DNA of 51,286 nt from Gemmatimonadota bacterium (GTDB lineage: Bacteria > Gemmatimonadota > Gemmatimonadetes > Longimicrobiales > Gaopeijiaceae). The stretch spans positions 1 to 51,286 of the forward strand of contig SLFU01000151.1 in the NCBI GenBank assembly GCA_007124095.1, read 5' to 3'. Positions 29,621 through 47,977 of the stretch are shown in pieces (the stretch's first letter is position 1; every line of letters begins with the position of its first letter). The notes under the pieces were generated by a model that saw only the letters and a program-made list of their open reading frames with translations, did not search any database and had not been told where the DNA came from. Both the position numbers and the translations under genes were made by a program.

Positions 29621-30500
29621 AAACCTTCTTGAGACGTTCTCTGGAAGTGTGGGTGTAGATCTGCGTCGTCGAGAGGGAGGCGTGCCCCAGGAGCTCCTTC
29701 ACGGAGGTGAGGTCTGCTCCCGCATCCAGGAGGTGGGTGGCAAAGGAGTGGCGAAGGGAATGCACCGACAATCCCTCCTCCTCTCCCGCGACCTCGATGA
29801 GGCTGCGGATGGAACGCTGGATCGTTCGAGTGGAAATCCGCTCCCCCCTCCGGTTCACGAGGAGTGCGCCGCGGCTGAGCGGCGCTCCCGTCTCACTCCG
29901 CCTGGGCTCGTAGCGGCGAAGGGCCCCAACGGCGGAGGAAGTGAGCGGCACGATTCGCTCCTTCCTCCCCTTTCCTCGAACCTTCACTTGCTCGCTCACC
30001 AGATCCAAGGCCTCGAGGTCCAGTCCATGAGCCTCCGAGAGTCGGAGGCCGCTTCCGTACAGGAGCTCCAGAATCGCGAGTGTGCGCGTCCCGGCCAGGG
30101 TGTTCTCCCGGGCCAGCTCCTCCGCGATATCGAAGATCAGCTCCACCCCTCGCTGGGGGAGATGTCCTGGAAGGGTTCGCACCCTGCGCGGTGAGCGGAT
30201 GCCGCGGCTCGGATCGCCGGGAACCCGGCCCTCTCGGCTGAGGAAGCGAAAGAAGCTCCGGACGGCTGAGAGCTTACGGCCCACCGTGCGAGCGGCGAGA
30301 TTTCGACGCCTGCACCAGCCGAGAAAGCTTCGTAGAGTGATTCTGTCCACCTCGGCCCACTCCCACTCCGGAGTCCCGAGGAAGCTGACGAGGAACTCCT
30401 CCAGGTCGGAGAGGTCCCGTCGATACGCTGCGACCGTGTTCGGGGAGAGCTGCTTCTCAGCCTCGAGATGTCGGAGGAAGTGGGCGATCTCGGCGTTCAT
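29595..30500 (-). CDS. xerC: Tyrosine recombinase XerC
   Basis: Site-specific recombinase that resolves chromosome dimers at dif. 301 residues from ATG 30500. The N-terminal SAM-like core-binding domain covers 1-90. The catalytic set is complete: Arg153 (GLRLSE), Lys177, His247 and Arg250 ([12 protein letters not shown]), His273 ([10 protein letters not shown]) and Tyr282 (IYTHTS). It overlaps trmFO (ATGA) and hslV. The order topA-trmFO-xerC-hslV-hslU, known from Bacillus (topA-trmFO-codV-clpQ-clpY), supports housekeeping XerC rather than a phage integrase. Confidence 0.95.
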
Positions 30501-31831: not shown

Positions 31832-34337
31832 CCTTCTTCTTCCGTCCACGCGCCCGGCCCTTGCCCTTGCGTCCCTTCCCCTTTGCGGCGGACCGAGCGA
31901 GGAGGTCGACTCCCTCCTCGAGCGTGATCGTCTCCGGGTCGGCGCCCTTCGGGAGACTCGCGTTCACCTGGCCGTCCGTAACGTAAGGACCATATCGCCC
32001 ATCCAGGACCTGGAGGGGAATCCCCGACTTCGGATGCTCGCCCAGCTCTTTGAGGACTGCGGGGCCCTGCTTCTTGGCGAGGAGATCCAGGGCATCCTCC
32101 AGGGTGACCGTGAAGATCTCCTCCTCGTTGCCCAGATTCCGGTAGGACCCACCGCGATGGACATAGGGCCCGTAGCGCCCGAGTCCGGCTGTCACCTCTT
32201 TGCCCGACTTAGGATCCTTCCCCAAGGTCCGGGGCAGGGAGAGGAGCCGCAGGGCGTAATCCAGGTCGACCGAACTCGGCTCCCGTCCGCTCGGGAGGCT
32301 TGCCCTCCGGGGCTTCGGGCCGCCCTCCACCTTTTCCCCGACCTGAACATAGGGGCCGTAGGGACCGTCCTTGAGAAAGATCGGCTCTCCGGACTCGGGA
32401 TCCTTGCCCAGCTCGGCGTCCTCGGAGAGCTCGCCGGGACCATCAATCGAACGAGTGCTCCGGCACTCCGGGTAGGCAGAGCACCCCAGGAAGCGGCCGT
32501 ACCGGTTCCACTTGACCAGCATCGGGCTCCCGCACTTCTCGCAGGTCTCTCCTTCGGCGGCAAGGATCTCCTTGACGATCTCCTCGGAGGCCGCCTCCCC
32601 CACCTCCAGCCTCTTCTGGAAGGACGGGTAAAACTCCTCGAGGACCTGACGCCAATCCACCTCGCCTACCTCCACCCGATCGAGCTCCCCCTCCATCCTG
32701 GAGGTGAAATCCGGGTCGAATAGGTTCGGAAAAACCCGAACGAGCAACTTCACCACGGTGTCTCCGAGCGGGGTCGGGACGAACCGACGGTCCTCCAGCT
32801 CGACGTAGCCTCTGTCCCGGATCGTCGTGAGGATCTGGGCATAGGTGGAAGGCCGTCCGATTCCCTGCTGCTCGAGTTCCTTGACGAGGCTCGCTTCCGA
32901 GAATCGGGGGGGGGGCTGGGTGAAATGCTGCTTCGGCTCCAGCTCCCTCAGCCCGGTCACGTCCCCCTTGGACAGCTCCGGCAGGGGGTCCAGGTCACCC
33001 AGGCGGCGCGGATCTCCGGCTTCGGTCGCCTCCTGATAGAGGCGGGCGAACCCGTCGAACTTCATTACCGAGCCAGTGGCCCGGAAGAGGTACTCCCGGC
33101 CCCCGGATCCCTCGAGCGAGAAATCGGCGGTGGTGGTGTCGTAGACTGTCGGGGGCATCTGTCCGGCTACGAATCGAAGCCAGATGAGCTCGTAGAGTCG
33201 TGCCTCGGAATCGTCCAGATACTTTCGAGCTTCATCGGGATGCAGGGAGGGGTCAGCGGGTCGGATCGCTTCGTGGGCCTCCTGCGCCCCTCTCTGCTGA
33301 CTACCACCCCAGAGCCTCGGGGACGACGGGAGGTACTTCTCCCCGAACTCCCCCTCCACCCAGCGCCGGGCCACCTGAACGGCCTCGGGAGAGACACGGG
33401 TGGAGTCCGTCCGCATGTAGGTGATCAGCCCGACCAGGCCCCGCCCCCCAACCTCCACGCCCTCATAGAGCCGCTGGGCGGACCCCATGGTGCGCCGTGC
33501 CGAAAAGCGAAGCCGTTTAGCGGCCTCCTGCTGAAGGGTGGAGGTCGTGAAGGGTGCAGGAGGGTTCTTCCTCCGCTCTCTTCGCTTGACCTCGGTGGCC
33601 TGGAAGGGCAGTCCCTCCACATCCTCGAGCACACGGGCCGCTTCCGACTCGTTCCCGAGAGTGAAGGACTCCCCGTCGATCTTCCGGAGCTTGGCCTCGA
33701 AGGGCTGTGCGTCCTTTTCCAGGTGTGCCGTGATGGACCAGTACTCCTCGGCGACGAAACGCGTAATCTCGTCCTCGCGCTCGCAGATCAGGCGGAGGGC
33801 GACCGTCTGCACCCTTCCCGCCGAAAGCCCCGGACGAATCGGTTTCCAGAGGAAAGGGGAGGCCTGGTAGCCCACCAGCCGGTCGAGGATCCTGCGGGCC
33901 TGCTGCGCCTCGACCTTCTTCATGTCCAGGGACCCATGCGACTCGAGGGCTCGCTCGACTGCCGTCTTGGTGATTTCACGAAACTCCACACGGCGGAATC
34001 GCTCGGGAGCCTCCTTCAATCCGAGGTACTCGGCTACGTGGAAGGCGATCGCCTCACCCTCCCGGTCGGGGTCGGTGGCGAGAATGACGCGACCCACCTT
34101 GCCGGCCTTCTTCTTGAGATCAGTGAGGACCTTCCCCTTCCCGCGGATTGTGACGTACCTCGGCTCGAAGCCCTTCTCGACATCGACGCCGAGCTCCTTC
34201 TTGGGAAGGTCACGCACGTGCCCGACCGAAGCGGCCACATCGTAGTCGCGGCCCAGGTACCGGCTGATGGTCCGGGCCTTCGCGGGAGATTCCACGATCA
34301 CGAGTTGTCGACGGTTCTTTCCGTTCGCCTTCGCCAT
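31824..34337 (-). CDS. topA: DNA topoisomerase I
   Basis: Relaxes negative supercoils. 837 residues. The TOPRIM domain has Glu16 (IVESPAK) and Asp89/Asp91 (DPDREGE). The active-site tyrosine is Tyr307 in GLITYMRTDSTRVS. One four-cysteine zinc ribbon lies near 595-625 (CEKCGSP ... CSAYPECRS). Three TopA C-terminal repeats with G-x-YGPYV motifs follow, then a lysine/arginine-rich tail (GKGRKGKGRARGRKKKGG) likely to bind DNA. ATG start at 34337. Confidence 0.97.
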   Translation of the reverse strand: MAKANGKNRRQLVIVESPAKARTISRYLGRDYDVAASVGHVRDLPKKELGVDVEKGFEPRYVTIRGKGKVLTDLKKKAGKVGRVILATDPDREGEAIAFHVAEYLGLKEAPERFRRVEFREITKTAVERALESHGSLDMKKVEAQQARRILDRLVGYQASPFLWKPIRPGLSAGRVQTVALRLICEREDEITRFVAEEYWSITAHLEKDAQPFEAKLRKIDGESFTLGNESEAARVLEDVEGLPFQATEVKRRERRKNPPAPFTTSTLQQEAAKRLRFSARRTMGSAQRLYEGVEVGGRGLVGLITYMRTDSTRVSPEAVQVARRWVEGEFGEKYLPSSPRLWGGSQQRGAQEAHEAIRPADPSLHPDEARKYLDDSEARLYELIWLRFVAGQMPPTVYDTTTADFSLEGSGGREYLFRATGSVMKFDGFARLYQEATEAGDPRRLGDLDPLPELSKGDVTGLRELEPKQHFTQPPPRFSEASLVKELEQQGIGRPSTYAQILTTIRDRGYVELEDRRFVPTPLGDTVVKLLVRVFPNLFDPDFTSRMEGELDRVEVGEVDWRQVLEEFYPSFQKRLEVGEAASEEIVKEILAAEGETCEKCGSPMLVKWNRYGRFLGCSAYPECRSTRSIDGPGELSEDAELGKDPESGEPIFLKDGPYGPYVQVGEKVEGGPKPRRASLPSGREPSSVDLDYALRLLSLPRTLGKDPKSGKEVTAGLGRYGPYVHRGGSYRNLGNEEEIFTVTLEDALDLLAKKQGPAVLKELGEHPKSGIPLQVLDGRYGPYVTDGQVNASLPKGADPETITLEEGVDLLARSAAKGKGRKGKGRARGRKKKGG

Positions 34338-34373
34338 ACTTATCCGATATGAAATGAGAAGCAGCCTCGGCCC

Positions 34374-34961
34374 TCAGGCTCGAAGAGGCCGCTCAGGCTC
34401 CGTCCGGAGGTGATCGACGACCCGACCGACCACCTCCGGCGGAGTGCGCCTCTCCGTGTCCACCCACCAATGGGCGGCCCGGTAATACGGCTCCCGCCGG
34501 ACGAGAAGTTCCCTCGTGCGACGAAGCGGGTCCGGAACATCGAGGAGGGGACGCTCGGTCCCCTGTCCCCGGGCTCGCTCCAGTGCGAGTTCCGGGGGGA
34601 CCGCGAGCCAGATCGAGAGAGTATTCTCCGGAAGAGCCTCCATCCGGCCGGGGCGGCACGGCCAACCCCCTCCCGAAGCCAGGACGATCAAGTCCTCTCC
34701 CAGGAGTCGCCGAGCCATCCGATCCTCCACGGCTCGGAAGGCCTCCTCCCCCTCTTCGCGGAAGATATGGGAAATGGTCCGCCCGGCCTCCCTCTCCACC
34801 GCCGTGTCCAGGTCGACGAACCTCCAACCAAGTTCCCTCGCCAGGAGCGGTCCCACCGTGCTCTTTCCACTCCCCATGAACCCCACCAGCAAGATGCGTC
34901 GGAAGGACGCGGGGCTCGGAGATCCCTGGAGGCGATCGGACGGGGGAGCAGAGGGCTCCAT
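34374..34961 (-). CDS. aroK: Shikimate kinase
   Basis: Phosphorylates shikimate in chorismate synthesis. 195 residues from ATG 34961, eight bases after aroC. The P-loop is GFMGSGKS (27-34). The shikimate-binding Asp lies in FVDLDTAVE, and the glycine motif is VLASGGGW. The lid region is R-rich (RPLLDVPDPLRRT). It is paired with aroC, the pathway's last enzyme. In many proteobacteria aroK follows pilMNOPQ, and the two sit in the same broad neighbourhood here. Confidence 0.96.
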   Translation of the reverse strand: MEPSAPPSDRLQGSPSPASFRRILLVGFMGSGKSTVGPLLARELGWRFVDLDTAVEREAGRTISHIFREEGEEAFRAVEDRMARRLLGEDLIVLASGGGWPCRPGRMEALPENTLSIWLAVPPELALERARGQGTERPLLDVPDPLRRTRELLVRREPYYRAAHWWVDTERRTPPEVVGRVVDHLRTEPERPLRA

Positions 34962-34969
34962 CGATGCGG

Positions 34970-36190
34970 TCAGCGTCCCCCCCAGCCGCGCTCGGAGAGG
35001 TACGCGAGGTATCCCTCGAAGTTCCGGTGCAGCTCGGTCATCGAGTCGCCTCCGAACTTCTCCAGGAGCACGTCGGCGAGCACCAGGGCCACCATCGCCT
35101 CCCCCACGACCGCGGCCGCAGGAACTGCGCACACGTCACTCCGCTCCGTGGCCGCCTCGTGGACGCTCCCGTCCCGGAGGTCCACCGAAGGGAGGCGACG
35201 CTTGAGGAGGGTCGAGATCGGCTTCATCGCTCCACGCACCACCAGCGGCTCCCCGGTCGTCACTCCACCTTCCAACCCTCCGGCCCCGTTCGAGGAACGA
35301 GCGAAGCCACCGGCTCGGTCGGCCACGTCGTCCCGCACAATCGGATCGTGGACCCTGGACCCCAAGCGCCGCGCACCCTCGAACCCCAACCCGATCTCGA
35401 CCCCTTTGATGGCCTGAATCGACATCATCGCTCCGGCCAGCCGGCCATCCAGCTTTCGATCCCAGCTCACATGGCTCCCGAGTCCGACGGGGAGACCCGT
35501 CGCGACCACCTCGAAGATCCCCCCCAGAGTGTCCCCTGCCTCCTTGGCTTCGTCAATCGCCGCCATCATCCGTTCGCCCGCTTCGTCGTCCAGTGTGCGG
35601 ACCGGAGAGGCGTACGCGACCTCGTTGAGATCTTCGGGCACCGCCTCCGGTGGGCGGGCCTCCACGTCTCCGATCGAACGAACGTAGCTCCCCACCCGGA
35701 TCCCGAATTCCGAGAGGAGCCGGCGGGCCACCGCCGCACAGGCCACTCGGGCCGCGGTCTCCCTTGCGCTGGCCCGCTCCAGGATGTCCCGGGTATCGCG
35801 GCGATCAAACTTGAGCACGCCGACCAGATCCGCATGGCCAGGGCGGGGAAGGTACATCGGCCGGAGCGCCTTCGGGTTCTCCTCCGGGTCCGGGGGGAGG
35901 GGGCTCATCGCCGTCGTCCAGTTCTCCCAGTCCCGATTCCAGACGAGCATGCTGATCGGGGAACCGAGTGTCTCTCCAAGACGAACACCGGAGAGCAGCT
36001 CCGCCCGGTCCGACTCGATCTGCATACGCCGTCCTCGGCCATACCCGCCCTGGCGCCGTGCCAACTCCGGGTCGACGTCCCGCTCCATCTGGAGGGAAAG
36101 CCCCGCGGGAATGCCCTCGATCAGCGCAGTGAGCGCCTTCCCATGCGATTCGCCGGCGGTCCGGAATGAAAGTGTGCGAAGGAGCGTCAT
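34970..36190 (-). CDS. aroC: Chorismate synthase
   Basis: Converts EPSP to chorismate with reduced FMN. 406 residues, within the long form of the family. N-terminal signature FRTAGESHGKALTALIEGIPAGL contains the first conserved His. RGRRMQIESDRAELLSGVR, RPGHADL and AAMMSIQAIKGVEIGLGFE are family motifs. ATG 36190 starts the long minus-strand run that goes on to aroK and topA. Upstream is a 157-base gap with a hairpin. Confidence 0.97.
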   Translation of the reverse strand: MTLLRTLSFRTAGESHGKALTALIEGIPAGLSLQMERDVDPELARRQGGYGRGRRMQIESDRAELLSGVRLGETLGSPISMLVWNRDWENWTTAMSPLPPDPEENPKALRPMYLPRPGHADLVGVLKFDRRDTRDILERASARETAARVACAAVARRLLSEFGIRVGSYVRSIGDVEARPPEAVPEDLNEVAYASPVRTLDDEAGERMMAAIDEAKEAGDTLGGIFEVVATGLPVGLGSHVSWDRKLDGRLAGAMMSIQAIKGVEIGLGFEGARRLGSRVHDPIVRDDVADRAGGFARSSNGAGGLEGGVTTGEPLVVRGAMKPISTLLKRRLPSVDLRDGSVHEAATERSDVCAVPAAAVVGEAMVALVLADVLLEKFGGDSMTELHRNFEGYLAYLSERGWGGR

Positions 36191-36347: not shown

Positions 36348-39300
36348 CTACTGCTCCCTGAGCACATCGGCCTTCGTGACGTTGACCACGAGAACACCTC
36401 CGGCCTCCGTCGGACCGGAGAGCTTCACGACCACACAGTCGTCCGGAACGCCGGGATCCGTGAAATCGACCGGCGCCACACCACAGGCGGGGGGATTCTC
36501 TCCCGGGAAGGGCAGGGTCGCCCGGATGGGCCCGAGCATCGTGTCGCGGATGTACGCACGACCCAGGAGTTCAAAGTGACGGGTGCCGTGGATTTCGATC
36601 ACTCCGCTCCCTACGGGCACGAAGGCGAGGCTTACTTCCGGGGGAGAATCCAGCGGTCCACCGGAGTGAAGGGGATGGAGGGCCACCCCTCCCCCTCCGG
36701 GCTCGATCAGGATCTCCCCCTCGAGGCCGAGTAGCGGATTGAAGAAGTAGGTGGCGAACAGGCCCCGCCCCACGCTGAGCTGGCCGTCCTCGTTGGATGC
36801 CACTCCGAGCACCCGCTCGCTCACGTTCCCGGTGAGGTCGGCCACGGTGGTGACTCGAGTGAAGGACTTGGCGGCCGCCTGCCAGTAAAAGACTCGGCCG
36901 GTGGGCTCCGTGGACCCTTCCCCGACGACCACGGCGCTGCGATCCCGCGAATGCGCGATGAAGGTCGTATCCGAGAGGCCTACGGCATCCACATCCCACC
37001 CTCCCCTCGAGACTTCGGGCAGGAAGAGGTCGTGAGCCGAGCCCTCGAGTTGAAACTGGCTCCTGAGATCCTCGACAGCCAACCTGGGGGCCTCGAAGGC
37101 ATCGTGAACCCCCGATTGCCACATATCGTTCATGGCTCCCGGGAGATGGGACTCCGCAACGATCCCGGGAACGTTTTCCGTGCGCATGAAGTCGACCTGG
37201 GCAATCGCCCAGCGATCCTCCCCGGGATCCACGTCGAGGAGGAGACTATGGTCCGTAACGAGGCGCACCGCCATGTCCGGGCCGAGGAACTCCCCCAACC
37301 GGATCGTGCCGTCCGGCGCGGCCCCCGTCGGCTTCGTCGAGAAGACGAACCAGCCGTCCGAGTCCTGCGCGAGGAATTGCGGGCGGTCGGAAAAGTCGAA
37401 GAAGGTGCGGTTGAAGGTCAGTCCATCCTGCTCGACCTCCCAGAGAATGGAGTTCGGAGTCGAGATACGATCCACCTCCTGCCCCGCGAGGACATCGACC
37501 TGCGAGATGTTGGTCGCACCCGAGTTCGCGACGTACAAGACGTTCTGGGTGTTGCGATCGAAAGTCAGACCCCACGGCTGGGACCCGACCGAGATCGTGT
37601 TCTCGCGGAAATCCTGGACTTCCGGATCCAGATCGAAGAGCTCGAGCCGGTTGAGACCCATATTCGAAAGGATGAGGAGCCGCTCGTCGTCGTGGACCAC
37701 TGCATCGGCGATCGACCCTCCGTTCGGCAAGAGCACGGTCCGTCCCGATACGACCGCCACGGTCACTCTCTGCCCGTCCTGGCTTTCGGCGATCACGAAG
37801 TCGTCATCCCCCACGGTGATCGTCTCGCAGACGAGCTGTCCGAAGGTGCTCGAGACGGCGGCGGCGCAGTTCGGCGCGGGCAGTCCGTCCTGGTCGACCG
37901 CCGCGTCCTCGGCCCACGCAAAGAAATCCAGATCGAGGGTATCAGGCCGGTTGGCCGGATCGAAGAAAGGCTCTCCGTCGGAATCCACGAAGTCCTGGAG
38001 CATCGTCGGGTCGAAGACGCGGGTCACGGTGCTTCCCACCCCCTCCGTGGTCTCGAACGCGTCGCTGATCCACAAGGTGTCGGCAGGGTTGTCCCTCCGG
38101 ACGGCGCGGACGGTGTACGCCGCCTTCCGGACGCCTGTCCCCCCACTGTTGTCACGCGCGGTCACGCTGACCTGGACGGGGTCGGACGCTTCAATCCGGC
38201 TGGGGTCTCCGGCGGCACCCTGGGGCTCTACGATGATCCGGAGCTCCGGCGGGGTCGTGTCGATCTCGGCCTCGTCGACCACGACCAGCTCGATGAGCGG
38301 CGCGTGACCGTAGATTCCCGTGACATTTCGAGCCCTGGCTCTCAGTTCGAGGGTCCCTGACAGGTCTTCGGGAACGGTGAAGTCGAAGGTCACCTCCAAG
38401 GACGTGGGATCCTGGCCCGGGAAGGCGGTCTCGGCCAAGGTCTCCTCGTGGACACCCGCGAGCTCGACCTCCACCAGCTCGATCCCGGCGGGGTCGGAGG
38501 CGAGCACCCGGATCTGCATCGTCTGCCCTCCAGCGACGGTGTCCCCGGAGTCGAGATCGGGCACCCCGACGCTGGGACCCCCGACGGTGACCGATACGGA
38601 GTCCCTCGACATAAGGCCGAGACCGTCTTCGGCCACGACCCGGATGAAGACTTCCTCGGAGACGGATTCCCCGGTCGGCTGAAGGTACCTCGTCAACGTC
38701 GTGTCTGTCTGCGGGGGGCTGAAGTGCACCGTGCGCGGCAGGAAGCGCTGCACCATTTCGTGGGTCCCGATCCCGCGATCACCCCGGTGGGCGACCCCGT
38801 CGTAGGTGACCCTCACGATGCCTTCCGAATCCTGAAGGTGAGCTCGTACCAGGAGGGAATCCCCCAGCGGGAGCCCACTCCCCGCGGTCGGCTGCTGAAT
38901 CTGGACCGTCGGCGGATCGGAAGTGAGCTGAACCCGAACCGTGTCCGCACCCACGTTCCCCTGCCGGTCGGTGGCCGTCACGATGATCGCGAGCTCCTCC
39001 TCGATCGGGTCCTCGTCCTCGTTCTCCTCGATCGGGATCAGGAAGCGCGTCAACGTCGTATCGGCCGACGGATTCACGAGGTCGAAGTCCCAGGGCTCGT
39101 ATCTCTCGACTACGTGGTCAGTTCCAAGATCGGGATCGCCCCGGAGCGCGACTCCCTCGATCCGGATGTGCTGCACGGCATCGTTGTCCCGCGCCCGGAA
39201 GCGCATTTCGAGCGGGACGCCCACCATCACGTGGGCGTTGGGCGAAGGCTGCAGAATCGAGACTGTGGGGGGGTCTTCGTCGATGAACACAGTCGTGAGC

Positions 39301-40013
39301 GGCTCGTCGGCCTGAACCGAGCTTCGGTTGCCCTCCAGGTCGACCGCAAATCCTTCCACGGCGAATTCCCCCACCTCGAGATCCTCGGGGATCGTGTACG
39401 GGAAGCCCCGCTCGGCAGTTCGACCGGAGACCGTCTCCGATCCCTCGGTGATGGTGTCCCCTTGAGCGGAGACGATCCGGAAGCCGACTGAAGCGAGCCC
39501 GATGTTATCCTCGGCCCGGACCACGACCTCCATCTCGTGGCCGAGCCCGACCACCACCGGAGAGAACGAAACGGAGACGGATGGTGGGGCTCTGTCGAAG
39601 GCGCGAACGTTCCCCTCCACTGTGCGACTGAGATTTCCGTGGATGTCCGCCGCCTGGACCGAGACCGCCACGATCGTGTCCGTGATTACCGCAGGGATGG
39701 AGAAGGTGACCTGCTCACTCACATCCGAGGAGCTGGTGCTCGGGACGGCAACCTCCGTCGCATGGAAATCCCCTACCTGAGCGCTCACCGCGATGGAGTC
39801 GACGGCGGTGAGTCCGGAAACCCGCACGCCGACCCTGAGATCTTCCCCCGAGTCCACTGAGGGAGGAAGCTGTAGCTCCAGGATCTGGGGACCGACTCCC
39901 ACACCTGGCCCGAAGAGGTTGTGGCCGTCGCATCCCCAGGCGAACACACCCACGGAGGCTCCATAGAGCACCCATCTGCGCAGCCTCACCAGTCGATTCG
40001 GTCTTCCGGACAT
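36348..40013 (-). CDS. Very large predicted surface lipoprotein downstream of pilQ
   Basis: 1,221 residues from ATG 40013 (GTG 40025 also possible). A basic N-terminus and hydrophobic run end in AWGC, a loose lipobox, suggesting lipidation at Cys28. Residues about 40-720 look like consecutive Ig-like beta-sandwich units. Two of these (about 250-480) are clear internal repeats, sharing V-A-x-RGD-x3-GT and the DTTLTR motif. Residues about 745-1100 look like a YncE-type beta-propeller (e.g. PWGLTFDRNTQNVLYVANSG). No catalytic motif is seen. It starts 21 bases after pilQ, so it is probably part of the pilMNOPQ operon and acts at the cell surface or with the secretin. Family not recognised. Confidence 0.9.
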   Translation of the reverse strand: MSGRPNRLVRLRRWVLYGASVGVFAWGCDGHNLFGPGVGVGPQILELQLPPSVDSGEDLRVGVRVSGLTAVDSIAVSAQVGDFHATEVAVPSTSSSDVSEQVTFSIPAVITDTIVAVSVQAADIHGNLSRTVEGNVRAFDRAPPSVSVSFSPVVVGLGHEMEVVVRAEDNIGLASVGFRIVSAQGDTITEGSETVSGRTAERGFPYTIPEDLEVGEFAVEGFAVDLEGNRSSVQADEPLTTVFIDEDPPTVSILQPSPNAHVMVGVPLEMRFRARDNDAVQHIRIEGVALRGDPDLGTDHVVERYEPWDFDLVNPSADTTLTRFLIPIEENEDEDPIEEELAIIVTATDRQGNVGADTVRVQLTSDPPTVQIQQPTAGSGLPLGDSLLVRAHLQDSEGIVRVTYDGVAHRGDRGIGTHEMVQRFLPRTVHFSPPQTDTTLTRYLQPTGESVSEEVFIRVVAEDGLGLMSRDSVSVTVGGPSVGVPDLDSGDTVAGGQTMQIRVLASDPAGIELVEVELAGVHEETLAETAFPGQDPTSLEVTFDFTVPEDLSGTLELRARARNVTGIYGHAPLIELVVVDEAEIDTTPPELRIIVEPQGAAGDPSRIEASDPVQVSVTARDNSGGTGVRKAAYTVRAVRRDNPADTLWISDAFETTEGVGSTVTRVFDPTMLQDFVDSDGEPFFDPANRPDTLDLDFFAWAEDAAVDQDGLPAPNCAAAVSSTFGQLVCETITVGDDDFVIAESQDGQRVTVAVVSGRTVLLPNGGSIADAVVHDDERLLILSNMGLNRLELFDLDPEVQDFRENTISVGSQPWGLTFDRNTQNVLYVANSGATNISQVDVLAGQEVDRISTPNSILWEVEQDGLTFNRTFFDFSDRPQFLAQDSDGWFVFSTKPTGAAPDGTIRLGEFLGPDMAVRLVTDHSLLLDVDPGEDRWAIAQVDFMRTENVPGIVAESHLPGAMNDMWQSGVHDAFEAPRLAVEDLRSQFQLEGSAHDLFLPEVSRGGWDVDAVGLSDTTFIAHSRDRSAVVVGEGSTEPTGRVFYWQAAAKSFTRVTTVADLTGNVSERVLGVASNEDGQLSVGRGLFATYFFNPLLGLEGEILIEPGGGGVALHPLHSGGPLDSPPEVSLAFVPVGSGVIEIHGTRHFELLGRAYIRDTMLGPIRATLPFPGENPPACGVAPVDFTDPGVPDDCVVVKLSGPTEAGGVLVVNVTKADVLREQ

Positions 40014-40034: not shown

Positions 40035-41840
40035 TCAGCGGCGGTTGATCTGGGGAGTTACGAGAATCATGAGATCCCGTTGGTTCGTCTCTTCGCGAGT
40101 GTGTCGGAAAAATCGACCGAGGAGGGGCAGCTCCATCAGCAGGGGTATCCCGATTCTGAACTCATCCCGCTCGGTCACGGTCAACCCCCCGATGACCACG
40201 GTTTCACCGTCCTCCACCAGGACCCGTGTCAACGCCTCTTGCGTGTTGAACACGAACCCGAGGTCAGCTTCCCGGATCTCAATCCCGGACCGCTCCGCAC
40301 GGAGTTCCATGAGAATGAGGTCTCCTGCGGTGACGTGGGGTGTGACCTCGAGCAGGATCCCGGTCTCTTCGATCTGGACCGTTGCCTGCGGGAAGGCTCC
40401 GTCCTGGGCCCCCGGTCCGCCTCCGGCGGCGTCGATCACACGGATCGGTGTGCGCTCGCCCACGAGGATCCTGGCCTGCTGGTTGTCGAGCACTCGGACC
40501 TGGGGGGCGGCCTGCACGTCGCTGAGGCTTCTCGACTCGAGCGCCTCCACGAAGCTGATGAGGGTGTGGCGGCCAATGACGAGTGAGGTCAGGAATTCGA
40601 GAGAGGGATTCACGACCCGGGAGTTGGCATTTCCCAACGCCGCAATCGAGTTTCCGCCGAGGGAGACCACATTCGTCCCGACCGGCACCGTCTCATCGGT
40701 TCCCGCCCCGGCGTCTCCGGTCTGTCCGGGCGTGAGCGTGTTGAGCTGGTTTCCCCTGGAATCCTTGAGGTCGTAAACAACGCCGAAATCCTCGAGGTCC
40801 GTGCGATTCACGAAGATGATCTTGGCTGAGATCGTGATCTCGGGGGTCCGCAGATCGAGCCCCTCGACGAGCTCCTCCACGGCATCGAGAACTCTAGGGA
40901 TGTCGGTTACCACGAGTGAATTGGTCGATCCGCTGATCGAGATCCTCCCTCGGGAGCTGAGGAGGCTCTCCACCGACCCCTGGAGCTCCTGGGCATTCGC
41001 GTAGTTCACGCGGAACGGCCGGGTCGTGAGCTGCTCCACGTCCTCGCGAGCCGTGAGATCCTCGAGTCGATCCACCCGTATGATTCCGGATGCCGCCTCC
41101 TGGGCGGCGAGACCGTGTGACTCGAGGATGGCCTGGAGAGCGATATCCCAGGGCTGATCCCGGATTTCGGCGTTGACCGTACCCGCTACCTGGGCCCCGG
41201 GAACGATGGAGCGACCGGAGAAGTCCGCAAAGGTGAAGAGGACATCTCGCAGGGGGGTGTCGGTGAACGACACCGTGATCCGTTCAGCCAGGTCCGAAAC
41301 GGCGATTCCGGTCCATCGGGCCGGCCGGACTCGAGGAGCCGCGCTGGCCGGTGCCACTCCTTCCAACGGGGTCGAAGCCAGGGGGCCAGCCGAAAGATCG
41401 GATGTGTCGCCTGAGCCGGCTCTCCAGGCCTCCCAGGGTTCGAAGGCCTCGTACGAATTCTCCATGGAGATCCGCACATAGCCATCTCCCGAGAGTAGCG
41501 AGTACCCCATAGGGGCATCCACCTCGACCACGACCCGAACGATCTCCTCGGAGTATTGGCTGGCTCGGATCCGGCGAATTCCGCCGCGCTCGATGTCGCT
41601 GAACACCTCCTTGGAGAGGGCAAAGCGAGCATCCATCAGGTCGAGCACGATCCGATCCGGTCCCTCCATCGTGAAGTCCCGGGTCTCCACGCTCCCCTCC
41701 AGGGAAATCACGATCTCCGTGCGGTCGGCCGAGGGCAGGACCTGGAGACCCGTGACTTCTCCAGCACGTTCACCCGACGTCGGACCACCGGTGAGCAACG
41801 CCAGCGCCACTGCGGTCCAAGTCGTCACCAGGAAGCTCAT
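40035..41840 (-). CDS. pilQ: Type IV pilus secretin PilQ
   Basis: Outer-membrane channel through which the pilus leaves the cell. 601 residues from ATG 41840 (overlap ATGA with pilP). A signal peptide covers about 1-23. One AMIN-type domain (about 27-130) is followed by a linker, an STN domain (about 190-250; VSFTDTPLRDVLFTFADFSG), a secretin N1 domain (about 265-335) and the secretin domain (about 340-600; VQIEETGILLEVTPHVTAGD, VIGGLTVTERDEFRIGIPLL). It is somewhat short for PilQ, with a single AMIN domain visible. Confidence 0.96.
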   Translation of the reverse strand: MSFLVTTWTAVALALLTGGPTSGERAGEVTGLQVLPSADRTEIVISLEGSVETRDFTMEGPDRIVLDLMDARFALSKEVFSDIERGGIRRIRASQYSEEIVRVVVEVDAPMGYSLLSGDGYVRISMENSYEAFEPWEAWRAGSGDTSDLSAGPLASTPLEGVAPASAAPRVRPARWTGIAVSDLAERITVSFTDTPLRDVLFTFADFSGRSIVPGAQVAGTVNAEIRDQPWDIALQAILESHGLAAQEAASGIIRVDRLEDLTAREDVEQLTTRPFRVNYANAQELQGSVESLLSSRGRISISGSTNSLVVTDIPRVLDAVEELVEGLDLRTPEITISAKIIFVNRTDLEDFGVVYDLKDSRGNQLNTLTPGQTGDAGAGTDETVPVGTNVVSLGGNSIAALGNANSRVVNPSLEFLTSLVIGRHTLISFVEALESRSLSDVQAAPQVRVLDNQQARILVGERTPIRVIDAAGGGPGAQDGAFPQATVQIEETGILLEVTPHVTAGDLILMELRAERSGIEIREADLGFVFNTQEALTRVLVEDGETVVIGGLTVTERDEFRIGIPLLMELPLLGRFFRHTREETNQRDLMILVTPQINRR

Positions 41841-42508
41841 GACCAACCTCCGTTCCCGTTCGCTTCGTGATCCGTGAGGGCCTCGCCGGTATTGTCCAGG
41901 AGCCCCTCCCCCTCCTGGTCCTGCCTCTCGACATCCTGCGGGGGCGTTTCCACCTCCGGTCCTTCCCCAGCCGCCCCGGGAGCGGTGTCCCCGGGAGGGA
42001 GCCCGGGACGCGTCTCCGCACGCCGGAGTTGGAGGGTTCGGGTTTCGGTCAGGCCGAACTCCGCGACCGCCACGAGGATCTGCCGGGGACGGATCTCGAT
42101 GACGCGGACGTTCCCCAGCGTCTCGCCCTCCCGCACCCGGTACGTGGCCGAGGCCGCCTGCTGGCTCGGCCCAGCAGATCGGGTACCGAGGAGTGCGACC
42201 GAGCCCCCCCCTCCCGTCGACGAGATCACACCCAGGAGAACCAGGTCCTCGAATCGAGGCCCGACATCGTCTTCTCCCGTCAGGGCGCGAAAGGGGTTCC
42301 TCCGTTCGAAGGTCGGGTAGCTGAACACCTCCCGTTCGAAGACGAGGTCCACCGTATCGCCATCCGAGGGGGCAGGCCGGTCCTGAAGGAGGATCCCGGC
42401 CGGCTCCGGTTGTCCCAACACGGCTCCGACCCGGAAGCCAATCGCACAGAGGAGTCCGACAGCCAGGAGGGCCGAGGCCCCCTTCTGCAACGTACCCGGC
42501 CGCGTCAC
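41837..42508 (-). CDS. pilP: PilP-like type IV pilus alignment protein
   Basis: Links the inner-membrane PilN/PilO complex to PilQ. 223 residues from GTG 42508. An N-terminal membrane segment (about 10-32) is present. Typical PilP places a short motif before a small beta-sandwich; here it reads YPTFERRNPFRAL (about 64-76), followed by the folded part LVLLGVISS to TRTLQLRR. The C-terminal 50 residues are acidic and disordered. No lipobox Cys is found where proteobacterial PilP has one. The assignment rests on the NPF motif and position between pilO and pilQ. Confidence 0.85.
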   Translation of the reverse strand: MTRPGTLQKGASALLAVGLLCAIGFRVGAVLGQPEPAGILLQDRPAPSDGDTVDLVFEREVFSYPTFERRNPFRALTGEDDVGPRFEDLVLLGVISSTGGGGSVALLGTRSAGPSQQAASATYRVREGETLGNVRVIEIRPRQILVAVAEFGLTETRTLQLRRAETRPGLPPGDTAPGAAGEGPEVETPPQDVERQDQEGEGLLDNTGEALTDHEANGNGGWS

Positions 42509-43122
42509 CCCTGCAGCTCCTCGGGGAGCTCGGAGCCCTCGCCCGGAGCCGGGCCTCCTGGAAGGACGTACGTCTCAATCCAAAAGCGCGCGGTGACCGG
42601 TGCCACCAACTCCGCCTGTGGTGCGGGCCCCGTGTACGGTGCGAGGTCCAACCCGATCGGGGTGACAATCCGGGGGAGGGACGCGACCGCGGTCAGAAAC
42701 CTTCCCACATCGTGGAACTCCCCGACTACCGAGACCTCATAGCTCTGCCGTGTGTAGAACTCTCCAGGCATCGAAGGCTCGGGCCGCATGGATGCCAGGT
42801 CGACTCCCGCTCGCTGGGCTTCCATCGCCATCGAGTTGAGCAGCGCAGGGACCTCTTCGCTCTGTGGAATCAACTCCTCCAGTCGCTCCACGTGCCGCTC
42901 GTAGATGATCAGCCTCGCTTCGAGCTCCTCACCCCCTCGAGCCGCCAAGATCTGAGCCTGCCGGTTCTGGTCTTCGAGCTGGGTCAAGTGCGCCTGAAGC
43001 TCCTCCACCTCCACGACCCGGGGCGAGTACCAGTAGTCGTAGAACATCCAGAGCGCTGCGAGGGACGCGATGATCACGATCAACGCGATCTGCTTGGGCC
43101 TCTCCTTGGGGATGAGGGCCAT
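42505..43122 (-). CDS. pilO: Type IV pilus inner-membrane protein PilO
   Basis: Partner of PilN in the alignment complex. 205 residues: a short cytoplasmic N-terminus, one membrane helix (about 12-30, IALIVIIASLAALWMFYDYWY), a coiled coil (about 36-90), then a ferredoxin-like periplasmic domain (about 110-190; YEVSVVGEFHDVGRFLTAVASL is characteristic). Position between pilN and pilP supports it. The stop overlaps the pilP GTG start by four bases. Confidence 0.93.
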   Translation of the reverse strand: MALIPKERPKQIALIVIIASLAALWMFYDYWYSPRVVEVEELQAHLTQLEDQNRQAQILAARGGEELEARLIIYERHVERLEELIPQSEEVPALLNSMAMEAQRAGVDLASMRPEPSMPGEFYTRQSYEVSVVGEFHDVGRFLTAVASLPRIVTPIGLDLAPYTGPAPQAELVAPVTARFWIETYVLPGGPAPGEGSELPEELQG

Positions 43123-43125
43123 GGC

Positions 43126-43818
43126 TCAGCTCTCCTCTTCCCCGGAGGGCGGCACGACCGACGGACCGAAGAGGGGAACGCTCTCGATGACCCCCGCGGG
43201 GGGTTCCTGCGTGGAGGCCTGGAGTATGAACTGATGGACGACCGTTTCCGCACCGTCGGCCCCGGAGATCGAGGTCTGATCCGAGCCGATGAGGCGAACG
43301 CCTCGAATAAAGGGGGACGCCTCCAGGTTTTCCATGAAGGTAGTGAGAGCGAAGTAGGTGCCCGCCGCCCCATCGATCTGAAAGACGAGGTCGCCGCCCC
43401 CTCCCGAGACCTGGCTGAGGCGCATCATCCAGGTGAAATCGGGGAGCGCCCGCGCCACCTCATCCATTACATGGGGCCAGAGGTAGCGATCTCCGTCGAT
43501 CCCCTGAATGATTTCCACCCTCCTCGCGATCGAGTCACGCCTCGCCTGCAGGGTCTGGGAGCGTTCGATCATATCAGCGAGCCGAATGGAGTCGCTCGCC
43601 GCCGCCTCGATCCGGACCTCCAACTCCTCCGCCTGCCCCGCAACCGCGAAGAAGAGCCAGAGGATTCCCAGGAGCGACATCCCGACCGCGAGCCCCGCAT
43701 ACGCCGTCCATCGGTCCACCCGAGGCATCGACCCCGAGAACCGCGGGAGAAAGCGGGTGAGCTTGACCCGTCGACCGGCCCGCCTCCCTCCCCCGGGGAG
43801 GAGATTGACCTCGATCAA
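43126..43818 (-). CDS. pilN: Type IV pilus inner-membrane protein PilN
   Basis: Binds PilM through its cytoplasmic N-terminus and pairs with PilO in the periplasm. 230 residues from TTG 43818. The start is well supported: GGAGG lies six bases upstream, and the product begins M-IEVNLLPG, the conserved PilM-binding peptide. One membrane helix (about 39-58), a coiled coil (about 60-95) and a ferredoxin-like domain follow. A proline-rich tail ends the protein. It starts 19 bases after pilM. Confidence 0.93.
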   Translation of the reverse strand: MIEVNLLPGGGRRAGRRVKLTRFLPRFSGSMPRVDRWTAYAGLAVGMSLLGILWLFFAVAGQAEELEVRIEAAASDSIRLADMIERSQTLQARRDSIARRVEIIQGIDGDRYLWPHVMDEVARALPDFTWMMRLSQVSGGGGDLVFQIDGAAGTYFALTTFMENLEASPFIRGVRLIGSDQTSISGADGAETVVHQFILQASTQEPPAGVIESVPLFGPSVVPPSGEEES

Positions 43819-43837
43819 GGCGCCCTCCTCTCGTGCT

Positions 43838-44875
43838 TCACGGTGTCCTGAGCGCCAATCCCAAGGGGAGGAGGAGCATCGGCCCCGCCTCGTCGAGGAC
43901 CAGGTTGAGAGGCGCATCCGGACGCACCGGCACTCGCTCGAAGGGGTTTACGAGTCGCGTCTCGACTCCCATACGACTTCCCAGCGCCTCGGCCATGCCC
44001 GGGATCCGTCCCCCTCCTCCGCTCAGGTAGAGGCGGCCCAATCCCGCACCAGGGTGCTGGGTCATCAGGAAGGCCGCCCCCCGCTCCACTCCCACGGCGA
44101 CCTCCTCGGCGCTCTCTCGAACGAAGTCGACCGGATCCTCCATCTCCGTTCGACCCTGAACCACCTCCTCCGCGGCCTCAGTGGTCAAACCCCGTTCCCG
44201 CTGGAGGCGCTCCCGGATCTTTCGGGAGCCGAAGGGAACGTCTCTCGTCAGGATCGGAACGCCGTCCTCCATGATGTTCACATTCGTAGTTTCGTGTCCC
44301 ACGTTCACCAGGGCCACGATCCCCTCCAATCCCTCCGGATGGTTGTGCTCGAAGCCGTTGTGGAGGGCAAAAGCGTCCACGTCGATCACAGTGGCCTGCA
44401 AGCCGGCCCCCACGAGAACGGAGAGCTTGTTCTCCACGAGCTCCCGCTTCGCCGCCACCAGCAGGACTTCCATCTGGGGACCGTCGGCCTCGGGATTCAG
44501 GATCTGAAAATCCAACTCCACGCTCTTGATGTCGAAGGGAACGTGCTGCTCCGCCTCCCAGCGGATGACCTCTCGAGCGTCGGCCTCCTCCATTCGGTCC
44601 ATGTCGATCTTCTTGATGATGACATCGTGCCCCCCGATCGCCGTGATCACCTCCTTGTGCTTGAGGCCGGCCTCCTCGACCAGGTCGCGGACCGTGTCGG
44701 CGACCAGCCCCGGGTCCATGATCTCTCCCTCCACGATCGCATCGGGAAGGAGGGCCCGCATGACAACCCGGACGACCTCGGGCTGGTCGCCGGAGTGATC
44801 CACCTCGATGAGCTTGATGAAGCCGCTGCCGATGTCCAGACCGACGGAGGTCTTCTTCTGGCCGAACAGGGCCAT
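43838..44875 (-). CDS. pilM: Type IV pilus assembly ATPase-like protein PilM
   Basis: Cytoplasmic actin-like protein that binds PilN. 345 residues. Actin/FtsA-fold signatures: VGLDIGSGFIKLIEVD (about 11-26), ALVNVGHETTNVNIMEDG and LYLSGGGGRIPGMAEAL. ATG 44875 has GGAG upstream. First gene of pilMNOPQ, with a promoter candidate in the 127-base gap before it. Confidence 0.96.
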   Translation of the reverse strand: MALFGQKKTSVGLDIGSGFIKLIEVDHSGDQPEVVRVVMRALLPDAIVEGEIMDPGLVADTVRDLVEEAGLKHKEVITAIGGHDVIIKKIDMDRMEEADAREVIRWEAEQHVPFDIKSVELDFQILNPEADGPQMEVLLVAAKRELVENKLSVLVGAGLQATVIDVDAFALHNGFEHNHPEGLEGIVALVNVGHETTNVNIMEDGVPILTRDVPFGSRKIRERLQRERGLTTEAAEEVVQGRTEMEDPVDFVRESAEEVAVGVERGAAFLMTQHPGAGLGRLYLSGGGGRIPGMAEALGSRMGVETRLVNPFERVPVRPDAPLNLVLDEAGPMLLLPLGLALRTP

Positions 44876-45002: not shown

Positions 45003-46169
45003 TCAGAAGGATGCACCCGTCAGATCCACCCAACTCCTCTCGGCGAGGGGCTCGAGCCGGGACAGGGTCTCGCTCAACTCGAGCGACCGCCTCACCGCGC
45101 AACTCGAATAGTCGATGTTCGGAGTTCCAGAGAGGGTGCTGGCCGACTTCGCCGCGACCGCGCCGGTCACCCGCGGGGTGCCCGCGGCCGCCGAAAACTC
45201 CCCCTGCACCAGAATGATCCCGCTGAAGTGGGCGTTGCCGTGCATCTCCAGATCGCCCTCGACCAGGAGCACCCCCTGGCCGAGCGCGCTCCCTCCGATC
45301 GAGACATTCCCCGTGACGTGGATGACGGGATAGTAGTTCAAGCAATCGTCGTCGGTCGAGGTGGGCTCCGGGGTGCCCCAGTTGTTGGGATCGGAGACGT
45401 CGCAGCCCCCCCCCGAGGTGTAGCTCGGCCCGGGCTCCACCGCGGTCGCTGTCACGACCTTCGTGGCGAGGCCAATGAGCTCGTTCCACATCTCGTCGAC
45501 CGAGGCCATCTGCTGCTGGACCGCCTGCACGTCCTCCTGGATGCAGGGAGTGCCCACGTACTGGTTCGGGCACTCCGCTCCCCCGGGCCATGGGGAGGCG
45601 GTGACCTCCGACGCGTCGTCGGTCATCACACCGGGCTTCGGGGTCAGGGGATTGGGGCACATCTCGCTCGTCCAGAGCGCCGGGACCTGGTCGCTTCCGT
45701 CCACCTTCCTCGGAGCCCCCTGCGCGTGCACCCCACCCTGGATCGTGAGGGCGGCCGGAGGATTCAGATTCGCCGTGGCCAGCCGCGCGAGAAGCCCCAC
45801 GGTACGGGTCGCGGGCGCCTCCCGCGCCTGGACCTCACCCGTCGTGCGGATGAAGTAGAGCCGGTCGTCCACCTGTCGAATCACGGCCTCCCAGTCCCCC
45901 TGACCGGTGCTCCCCGTCAGAGTCACCGGTTCTCCCCAGGCAGTGATCCCGGCCGCCCCCGCGTTCCAGGTGCCGAGGACGGTATTCATCCCACTCTCGG
46001 CCACGTAGAAGGCTCGGGCGGCCTGCCCCGTCGCTTCCCCGATCCGGGACTCCTGCGTGGCGATCTGGATCCCTCCGGTGATGAGCAATCCCACCACCAC
46101 CAGTCCGAGGATGGCCGCCGGAAGGGCGAAGCCGTCGGAGCGCCCCCGGAGGCGAGTCGATTTCTTCAT
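45003..46169 (-). CDS. PilX-like pilus protein, module A
   Basis: 388 residues from ATG 46169. The N-terminus is prepilin-like: a basic leader, then G|FALPAAILGLVVVGLLITG, without the Glu5 of ordinary pilins, as in PilX-type proteins. A helix (QAARAFYVAESGMN) follows. The middle (about 150-270) holds several cysteines. The C-terminal part (about 285-360) is made of short glycine-rich repeats (GNVSIGGSALGQGVLLVEGD, GNAHFSGIILVQGEF), suggesting a beta-helix. It is the last gene of module A, 33 bases after pilW-A. Likely a minor pilin or tip component. Confidence 0.82.
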   Translation of the reverse strand: MKKSTRLRGRSDGFALPAAILGLVVVGLLITGGIQIATQESRIGEATGQAARAFYVAESGMNTVLGTWNAGAAGITAWGEPVTLTGSTGQGDWEAVIRQVDDRLYFIRTTGEVQAREAPATRTVGLLARLATANLNPPAALTIQGGVHAQGAPRKVDGSDQVPALWTSEMCPNPLTPKPGVMTDDASEVTASPWPGGAECPNQYVGTPCIQEDVQAVQQQMASVDEMWNELIGLATKVVTATAVEPGPSYTSGGGCDVSDPNNWGTPEPTSTDDDCLNYYPVIHVTGNVSIGGSALGQGVLLVEGDLEMHGNAHFSGIILVQGEFSAAAGTPRVTGAVAAKSASTLSGTPNIDYSSCAVRRSLELSETLSRLEPLAERSWVDLTGASF

Positions 46170-46202
46170 GATGCTTCTCGTCCCATGAGAGCTTCCCAGA
46201 GG

Positions 46203-47045
46203 TCAGTTTCGAAGAAACACTGCGGTGGTCAGGGTGTCGGCCACCGTGTGCCCCCACTCGTCCCTAGCCGGCGAGGCCGTTCGGAGGGTGATCCGGACCC
46301 GCGCCACATCAGAGGGATCCCCTGCGGTCATACCGTCGACCGCCAGATACTCGAACTCCAATCCCACCCCGGCCTCGAGGGGGCCCACCAGCCGGGCCAC
46401 GCTCCCGTCGAGGGCGCGTGCGAGGTGCCATCCGTCCTCGAACTCTTCAAGCCCATACTCCACCTCCTCCCAGGCCCTGACCGGGGCTCCCCTTCGGACC
46501 CTCGTGAACTGCGAGTCCGAAAGTCCTCCGAGGATGATCTGCTCGGCAGCGATTTCGCCGTCCCCGGACCCACAGAGATGGCCTGTCTGCACACCACTCA
46601 CCGACGAGATCAACCACTCGTCGTCAACGGTGAGCCCAGGATCTCCATCCGCAAAGACATAGAGCGACTCTCCCAGGCGAAACGATCGGCCCAGGTGAGC
46701 GACGGTTACCGCACGGGAGGAGACGCCCCCAACCTCGCAGACCACCCCATAGGCCCGGAACGCCCGGAATCCCACCCTCCCCTCGTCGGTCACCAGGAGA
46801 TCGCCTCCGGAGGCGCTCACCTCCCTGAGCTCCTGGGCAAGCAGGGAGAGTCCGGCCCGGAGCGCCTGCTGACTCTGCACCTGCTCTCGCTGGACCGCGG
46901 AGACTCGTTGGTTGCTCACCAGCACCTGATAGACGGCCCCCATCAGGAGCGCACCGATCACGATCGCAACGAGGAGCTCGACGAGGCTGAAGCCCTCCCT
47001 CGAACCTCCCCTCGGTCCGTTGCGCACCCCACGAACGCGGTTCAT
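46203..47045 (-). CDS. PilW-like minor prepilin, module A
   Basis: 280 residues from ATG 47045, which overlaps the end of the pilV-like gene (ATGA). Classical type IV prepilin N-terminus: a basic leader, the cleavage site G|FSLVELLVAIVIGALLMG, and a long helix (SQQALRAGLSLLAQELREV). The remainder is a beta-rich globular domain with Cys residues near 136 and 170. Its length and position between PilV-like and PilX-like fit PilW. Confidence 0.87.
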   Translation of the reverse strand: MNRVRGVRNGPRGGSREGFSLVELLVAIVIGALLMGAVYQVLVSNQRVSAVQREQVQSQQALRAGLSLLAQELREVSASGGDLLVTDEGRVGFRAFRAYGVVCEVGGVSSRAVTVAHLGRSFRLGESLYVFADGDPGLTVDDEWLISSVSGVQTGHLCGSGDGEIAAEQIILGGLSDSQFTRVRRGAPVRAWEEVEYGLEEFEDGWHLARALDGSVARLVGPLEAGVGLEFEYLAVDGMTAGDPSDVARVRITLRTASPARDEWGHTVADTLTTAVFLRN

Positions 47046-47425
47046 CGGCGGCCGACCAGGTATTCAAAGGTATCCGCCACGACCGGGGAAATACCGGGGG
47101 CGGCGCCTACGCTCCCGGGGGTCCGCCCCGGTCCCACCACGACGACCTGCATCCGCTTCCATCCAGGAGCTTCCTCCTCGATCGACCAGGAAAGCTCGAA
47201 GTGCCCGTGGAGGGCCGCACCGCTGTTCAGCTCTTCGAGTGGGGTCGCCCTCACTTCCTCCATCGCGGCCTGAAACGCGGCGGTCCGGTGAGTTTCGAGA
47301 CGAGCGAGGTCGACCGAGCGGATCACCCATCCCGTTCCGGCAGCGAGCCCCAGGATCCCGACCGCGAGGACGAGCATCGAGACGATGAGCTCGATCAGAG
47401 TGAGTCCGGAGCGATTCAGCTTCAC
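47042..47425 (-). CDS. PilV-like minor prepilin, module A
   Basis: 127 residues from GTG 47425, which shares bases with the stop of the preceding fimT-like gene. A very short leader (VKLNRSG) precedes the cleavage site G|LTLIELIVSMLVLAVGILGLA. The TRTAAFQAAMEEV-type helix and a small beta domain follow. The L-V-L-A-V-G-I-L-G pattern is typical of PilV/GspI-type minor pilins. Position +1 is Leu instead of Phe. Confidence 0.87.
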   Translation of the reverse strand: MKLNRSGLTLIELIVSMLVLAVGILGLAAGTGWVIRSVDLARLETHRTAAFQAAMEEVRATPLEELNSGAALHGHFELSWSIEEEAPGWKRMQVVVVGPGRTPGSVGAAPGISPVVADTFEYLVGRR

Positions 47426-47883
47426 GGCGTCACCGCCTGGCCGAGCGGCAGGAGAACCACGGTCGAAGCCCGGTCTCCGCGAACGAAGTTGACGCGGGCC
47501 TCCTGAGAGAAGGAGTTGGCATTGATATCTGCATAGCCCCTGGGAGTCATGCATACCCAGAGTGGCCCTCCACCGGTTTCGAGCGTCACGGCGTGGACGG
47601 CCGCAAAGCTTCGCGATTCGATCACCACCCCACCGTCCCCGCACCCCTCCTCGATGCTTACCATCCCGCTCGTGGGATCCACCCGCAGACGGATCGCTCG
47701 TCCCCGCTCCACTGCGAGAGCCCGGGTCTGTCCGTGCATCGAAAGAAAGTTGGACTGGGCCGAGCGCACACCAATCCGTGCTTGAACGTCACCGAAGTTC
47801 GCGACGGCAATGCCCGCGACCAGGGCCCCGATGGCCAGGACGATCACCACTTCGAGGATGGTGAACCCCCCTTGAGCCTGCAT
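47422..47883 (-). CDS. FimT/GspH-like minor prepilin, module A
   Basis: 153 residues from ATG 47883, which gives a compact leader MQAQGG before the cleavage site G|FTILEVVIVLAIGALVAGI. An upstream in-frame ATG at 47973 follows a perfect Shine-Dalgarno sequence and would give a 36-residue leader. I prefer 47883 because of leader length, a GAGG upstream and a sigma-54-like element overlapping the other start. The helix SAQSNFLSMHGQTRALAVERG and the short beta domain match FimT/GspH. First gene of module A. Confidence 0.85.
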   Translation of the reverse strand: MQAQGGFTILEVVIVLAIGALVAGIAVANFGDVQARIGVRSAQSNFLSMHGQTRALAVERGRAIRLRVDPTSGMVSIEEGCGDGGVVIESRSFAAVHAVTLETGGGPLWVCMTPRGYADINANSFSQEARVNFVRGDRASTVVLLPLGQAVTP

Positions 47884-47961
47884 GCTGAAGCCTCTGAGCG
47901 TCGGGGATTCGTGCGTTTCCCCTCGGATGACGGAGCGCCGAATGCCTCCTCCACCCGAATA

Positions 47962-47977
47962 AGCCAGTTTCATGCCA
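47962..47977 (-). promoter_or_regulatory. Candidate sigma-54 promoter of minor pilin module A
   Basis: On the minus strand TGGCATG (47977-47971), four bases, then TGGCT (47966-47962). The GG and GC dinucleotides are ten bases apart, as sigma-54 promoters require, and ten of twelve consensus bases match (TGGCACG-N4-TTGCW). Transcription would begin near 47951, about 68 bases before the preferred start at 47883. Two sigma-54 activators are encoded in this window. Confidence 0.4.

Follow-up and report, generated by a model that had tools for sequence, protein, structure and literature searches.

The machinery of type IVa pili (T4aP) has been studied chiefly in Proteobacteria and Myxococcota. In the papers searched, Gemmatimonadota pili are only annotated as present (PMC10581226, PMC7844134), and in the open-access literature we found no published description of the gene considered here, which lies directly behind the secretin gene pilQ, in what we term the slot between pilQ and aroC. 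Among the closest described counterparts are the PilY1/PilC proteins, which, like the predicted product of the slot gene, are large, exported and pil-linked, and combine variable N-terminal domains with a propeller at the C-terminus. In contrast to them, the slot protein shows no PF05567 domain, is predicted to be lipid-anchored with an Ig stalk, is encoded after pilQ instead of amid the minor-pilin genes, and is missing in many lineages that have pilQ. Secretin-associated lipoproteins and pilotins (Tgl, PilF/PilW) are tied to PilQ, as the slot gene is by position only; those known from T4aP are TPR proteins, whereas the slot protein combines Ig-like domains with a propeller and is missing in many lineages. 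The archaeal surface-layer YVTN/PKD protein 1l0q likewise joins a YVTN-type propeller to beta-sandwich domains but has no pil linkage, and the Big_1/Big_7 Ig-array surface proteins share the tandem Ig-like domains, plausibly a stalk, but differ from a lipid-anchored protein whose gene directly follows that of the secretin. The domain types are of known kinds, but their combination, the lipid anchor and the place behind pilQ fall outside any family tested, in line with the first-pass annotation, which recognised no named family. We file the protein as a variant of the type IVa pilus machinery that is neither PilY1 nor a pilotin.

The gene run around pilQ

The window, that is, the whole stretch of DNA analysed (51,286 nucleotides), carries the slot gene on its minus strand, a point missing from the first-pass annotation. 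On this coding strand, the order is GspH-like pilin, pilV, pilW, pilX, pilM, pilN, pilO, pilP, pilQ, slot gene, aroC, aroK, topA, trmFO, xerC, hslV and hslU (Table 1). The pilP gene matches nothing in Pfam and owes its name to position alone; the pilX-, pilW- and pilV-like genes are likewise named by position. The slot gene starts with the ATG at 40013, 21 nt from the end of pilQ at 40035, which agrees with the earlier placement of a gene 21 bases past pilQ and before aroC; its stop codon occupies 36348-36350, and GTG 40025 offers an alternative start. Three PilT-family genes score above the cut-off, making retractable pili likely. At 388 aa, the pilX-like protein (45003-46169) is large; it matches PF20597, an ice-binding-like adhesive domain, below threshold (E 0.004). 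Beside the pil genes, the order aroC-aroK-topA-trmFO-xerC-hslV-hslU (27492-36190) is kept phylum-wide, and its topA-trmFO-xerC-hslVU part recalls the Bacillus order.

Table 1. Features of the slot gene, its predicted product and the flanking genes (window coordinates).
Feature	Coordinates	Strand	Basis
Whole slot gene, 1,221 aa	36348..40013	-	ORF list; conserved across relatives
Predicted signal peptide, aa 1-27	39933..40013	-	Sequence; like pattern in relatives
Predicted lipidation Cys28 and tether CDGHNLFGPGVGV, aa 28-40	39894..39932	-	Pattern of relatives; low pLDDT
Ig-like domain 1, aa 42-140 (borders approximate)	39594..39890	-	AF2 strands
Ig-like domain 2, aa 143-242 (approximate)	39288..39587	-	AF2 strands; weak match to Ig1
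Ig-like domain 3, aa 248-365, repeat of Ig4	38919..39272	-	Sequence identity to Ig4
Ig-like domain 4, aa 366-482, Big_7, core Ig	38568..38918	-	Pfam; minimal-form profile
Ig-like domain 5, aa 484-582 (approximate)	38268..38564	-	AF2 strands
Ig-like domain 6, aa 588-705 (approximate)	37899..38252	-	AF2
YVTN-type beta-propeller, aa 715-1214	36372..37871	-	AF2; Foldseek; 1l0q profile match
aroC, downstream border of the slot	34970..36190	-	Pfam Chorismate_synt; order conserved
pilQ with AMIN, Secretin_N and Secretin	40035..41789 (start approximate)	-	Pfam
pilM, pilN, pilO and pilP-position gene	41837..44875	-	Pfam PilM_2, PilN, PilO
Minor-pilin genes (pilX-, pilW-, pilV-like)	45003..47973	-	Sub-threshold PilX_N and N_methyl matches

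Architecture of the slot protein

The product is a predicted lipoprotein. Across its relatives, a flexible tether leads into Ig-like domains, which vary in number, and usually on to a conserved propeller. The lipoprotein call was made by eye, with a simple pattern and from conservation in relatives: a signal peptide precedes a conserved Cys at the cleavage site, and a lipobox is present in nearly every slot gene. The lipobox of this protein (A-W-G-C) is atypical, those of its relatives at the equal position being canonical (L-A-A-C and similar), and a C-x-G-x-N-x-F motif at the lipidation site and tether is conserved within the GTDB family of the source. The earlier lipoprotein claim thus stands on a conserved Cys28 signal, and no cytoplasmic protein without a signal sequence emerged. 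In the AlphaFold2 model of the mature protein, residues 6-12 have a pLDDT < 50, and the low-confidence, disordered tether reads CDGHNLFGPGVG. Residue +2 of the mature lipoprotein is Asp, which in E. coli directs retention in the inner membrane. This calls for caution regarding outer-membrane sorting, though the rule is that of E. coli and may not hold in Gemmatimonadota.

The full-protein structure prediction that the first-pass annotation had called for, run on the mature form, returned an all-beta model (AlphaFold2; pLDDT 84, pTM 0.58), whose low pTM means that it does not fix the domain arrangement. The count of about six Ig-like domains was read from the strand pattern, so that both number and borders are approximate. 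The proposed pair of clear internal repeats is recovered as Ig3 and Ig4 (37% identity across 114 aa, E 1e-22), and Ig4 matches Big_7 (PF17957) in Pfam at 40.6 bits, against a gathering cut-off of 24.1 (E 4e-10). For residues 590-1221, modelled from an alignment of this sequence with 24 relatives, AlphaFold2 gives a confident Ig domain and propeller (pLDDT 89.5, pTM 0.86), in accord with the propeller-like C-terminal region first suspected. In Pfam, this region has only a sub-threshold Lactonase match; Foldseek matches listed for it include WD40 proteins, YncE 3vgz and YVTN 1l0q. The C-terminal profile matches the archaeal S-layer YVTN propeller 1l0q with E 1.4e-21 (best stretch 80 residues), the overall structural match to 1l0q being weak (Foldseek TM 0.26/0.39), and it also matches Lp49, a surface protein of Leptospira. 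The model, Foldseek and the 1l0q profile thus concur on a beta-propeller of the YVTN/YncE type. Most sequences share two pairs of Cys, which may form disulfides.

Searches with the whole protein were less specific: as a query against PDB sequences it found no matches, and Foldseek with the full model returned only generic Ig-array matches at low TM (complement and macroglobulin proteins), which were rejected as an identity. The C-terminal propeller family PF05567 has no match in the slot protein or in 25 relatives, and membership in PilY1 was rejected. Nor does the protein qualify as a TPR-lipoprotein pilotin, as Pfam finds no TPR match and the AlphaFold2 model is all-beta; a search of 29 relatives with the TIGR02521 pilotin model gave sub-cut-off matches only, its controls being equally silent.

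Distribution and forms of the slot

Matches to the slot protein occur in 46 of the 121 genomes of the source's GTDB family. A wide scan of about 85,000 species genomes, run unguided by locus with the C-terminal alignment as query (two peptide patterns, best 80 matches) and thus reaching recognisable relatives only, yielded 78 homologous loci among the matches listed, some from the same genomes as in the family search. The titles of nearly all name Gemmatimonadota; a Gammaproteobacteria title and a Kuenenia title probably reflect misnamed bins. The first-pass annotation had proposed a search of related genomes for linkage to pilQ, and 70 of the 78 listed loci indeed have pilQ upstream or aroC/topA downstream, with no pil gene near the other eight (L114, L117, L120, L121, L126-L129), so that homologues do not lie mostly away from pilus genes. 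The distance from the pilQ stop to the slot-gene start has a median of 21 nt and lies at 0-40 nt in 54 of 65 cases, figures that may shift somewhat because starts were picked heuristically by lipobox. As read from these genomes, then, the slot gene closes the pil block in much of the phylum, following pilQ on the same strand at a distance of about 20 nt, as befits an operon component. This phylum-wide synteny rules out an insertion unique to the present genome and revises the earlier picture of a gene inserted 'here' between pilQ and aroC: the slot is filled in much of the phylum, has repeatedly changed and is empty in some lineages. The pilM-to-trmFO block is, nonetheless, conserved as a whole, non-pilus genes included, and synteny alone therefore overstates the functional link.

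In one genome (G044; L066 and L070, on one contig), the slot gene is seemingly split, as if by rearrangement, with an N-terminal part lying behind pilQ at 2.05 Mb and a C-terminal one before aroC at 3.93 Mb; the fragments contain masked (N) stretches. Propeller paralogues also lie away from pil genes (L049, L054, L058, L060-L062, L114, L117, L120, L121, L126-L129), most with a lipobox and some with C-x-G-D-T-L-Y/F; the genomes of L049 and L054 have a slot copy besides.

The contents of the slot form a series: empty, with a pilQ-aroC gap of up to about 290 bp; a single Ig domain (~145 aa); an Ig array of 370-560 aa that lacks a propeller; Ig domains with a propeller; and extended forms such as the present protein, the largest reaching about 1,350 aa. 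The one-Ig form, a lipoprotein with a C-x-G-x-N-L-F motif, was found at seven loci of the GTDB family, and a locus of another family (L191) has a 160-aa ORF with a lipobox behind pilQ. A profile of the minimal form aligns with the first ~160 aa of ~930-aa forms; within the 1,221-aa protein, its best fit is Ig4 (E 3e-15). In another class, four genomes of GTDB family f11 (L218, L219, L220, L221) have an ORF of 635-956 aa (one running off its contig) about 2 nt behind pilQ, with a lipobox at the start followed by Big_1 Ig repeats and no propeller match in any of the four; in a fifth (L210), the start of a Big_1-type ORF is visible behind pilQ. Hence, an Ig-array lipoprotein behind pilQ extends beyond the sequence family of the slot protein. 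At L218, aroC was not found in ~9 kb after pilQ.

A PilQ tree was built from 112 rows, 68 with a full slot, 33 with an empty one and 11 with an Ig-only one; as empty-slot rows were partly picked for lacking a match, these fractions are not frequencies. On this tree, full versus not-full states require 11 gain/loss changes, eight of them forced by well-supported branches, and the Ig-only state requires three. By this reconstruction, the propeller form comes and goes repeatedly as pilQ persists; with the tree unrooted, losses are the likely direction.

Several PilQs lack a detectable AMIN domain (L080, L082, L083, L085-L087, L090 and L092 in the Pfam scan, L182 with our own profile), and all of these loci have an empty slot. 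AMIN has been linked to the polar placement of pili in M. xanthus (PMC10653833). The domain is kept by each of the 58 testable PilQs whose slot is full and missing in 13 of 33 whose slot is empty. Co-evolution of slot and AMIN was nevertheless rejected: independent pairs give p 0.5, and the PilQ start of the other class shows, by eye, no AMIN-like stretch despite a filled slot.

Of 297 genomes of the phylum, 125 have a strong propeller match (E <= 1e-20), and 123 of these also have a strong PilM match; among the other 172, 138 do. The difference (Fisher p 4e-7) ignores ancestry and rests on lists hand-compiled from printed tables, where some of the strong matches may be to paralogues. The PilY1 family PF05567 scored in one of the same 297 genomes and in none of the 121 of the source's family, the built-in controls being silent. 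Given these silent controls and a mention of Gemmatimonadota homologues (PMC13190605), PilY1 is best described as rarely detected, rather than proven absent, in the phylum.

Candidate roles at the pilus

We propose, at about even confidence, that the slot protein is an accessory lipoprotein of the Gemmatimonadota type IVa pilus machine, expressed with PilQ and built as a stalk with a head. The pil genes and the slot gene would be co-transcribed; the lipid anchor would keep the protein close to PilQ in the outer membrane; the Ig domains would form a stalk of adjustable length; and the propeller would be a head that, exposed at the surface, binds a ligand as an adhesin or receptor and sets the binding specificity of the pilus site or cell surface. 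An outer-membrane, surface-exposed location is probable; contact with PilQ, topology and a ligand are presumed. We count in favour of a pilus role the 70 of 78 syntenic loci of the wide scan, the series of slot forms, the spacing to pilQ with a lipobox in nearly every slot gene, the Ig lipoprotein of the other class, the co-occurrence with PilM, the PilT genes, the likeness of the propeller to the surface proteins 1l0q and Lp49, and the near-lack of PilY1 detections. Against it stand Asp at +2, the non-pilus genes of the conserved block and the paralogues away from pil genes. The roles raised in the first-pass annotation (surface adhesin, secretin-associated ring or pilus-linked sensor) can thus only be ranked: since pilQ is kept without the propeller form in many lineages, an accessory is favoured over a ring component that the pilus could not do without. 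As whole lineages lack the protein, it would modulate pilus function rather than build the pore. A bolder version, which we think rather unlikely, posits a type IV pilus outer-membrane complex of its own kind: a lipid-anchored Ig-stalk/propeller protein, instead of PilY1, would surround or cap the PilQ exit and serve there as an adhesin or a gate, and lineages would have exchanged or lost its head and stalk.

The retention of exactly an anchor and one Ig domain in the reduced forms, together with the lipoprotein gene lying ~20 nt behind that of the secretin and no above-cut-off pilotin-family match in the 29 relatives (controls silent too), would also suit a secretin assembly factor, namely a periplasmic pilotin-like or collar lipoprotein whose anchor-proximal Ig domain binds PilQ and aids its multimerisation or stability. 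The empty slots of many PilQ-bearing lineages, the TPR nature of known T4aP pilotins and a propeller and long Ig array that would be superfluous for such a role make this a rather improbable account. The equal linkage of aroC, aroK, topA and trmFO, which have no pilus role, the paralogues at other loci and the resemblance of the propeller to an archaeal S-layer protein raise a different prospect, that of a pilus-independent, S-layer-like surface lipoprotein riding in a slowly rearranging gene block. We consider this unlikely in view of the short pilQ gap preserved phylum-wide, the different Ig-type lipoprotein behind pilQ in the other class, including L218 with no aroC found nearby, and the co-occurrence with PilM, ancestry ignored. 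That the slot protein substitutes for PilY1 in priming pili or becoming a tip adhesin, as the scarcity of PilY1, the PilY1-like large variable N-terminus and C-terminal propeller, and the minor-pilin genes in the same gene run might suggest, is more improbable still given its conserved lipid anchor, the missing PF05567 match, the empty slots of pilus-bearing lineages and a gene placed behind pilQ rather than behind the minor pilins.

Conserved, unnamed and encoded behind PilQ in a phylum where PilY1 is rarely detected, the slot lipoprotein is a direct lead to pilus adhesion or stabilisation in Gemmatimonadota, and the natural series of slots (empty, one Ig, Ig array and full) offers ready comparisons.
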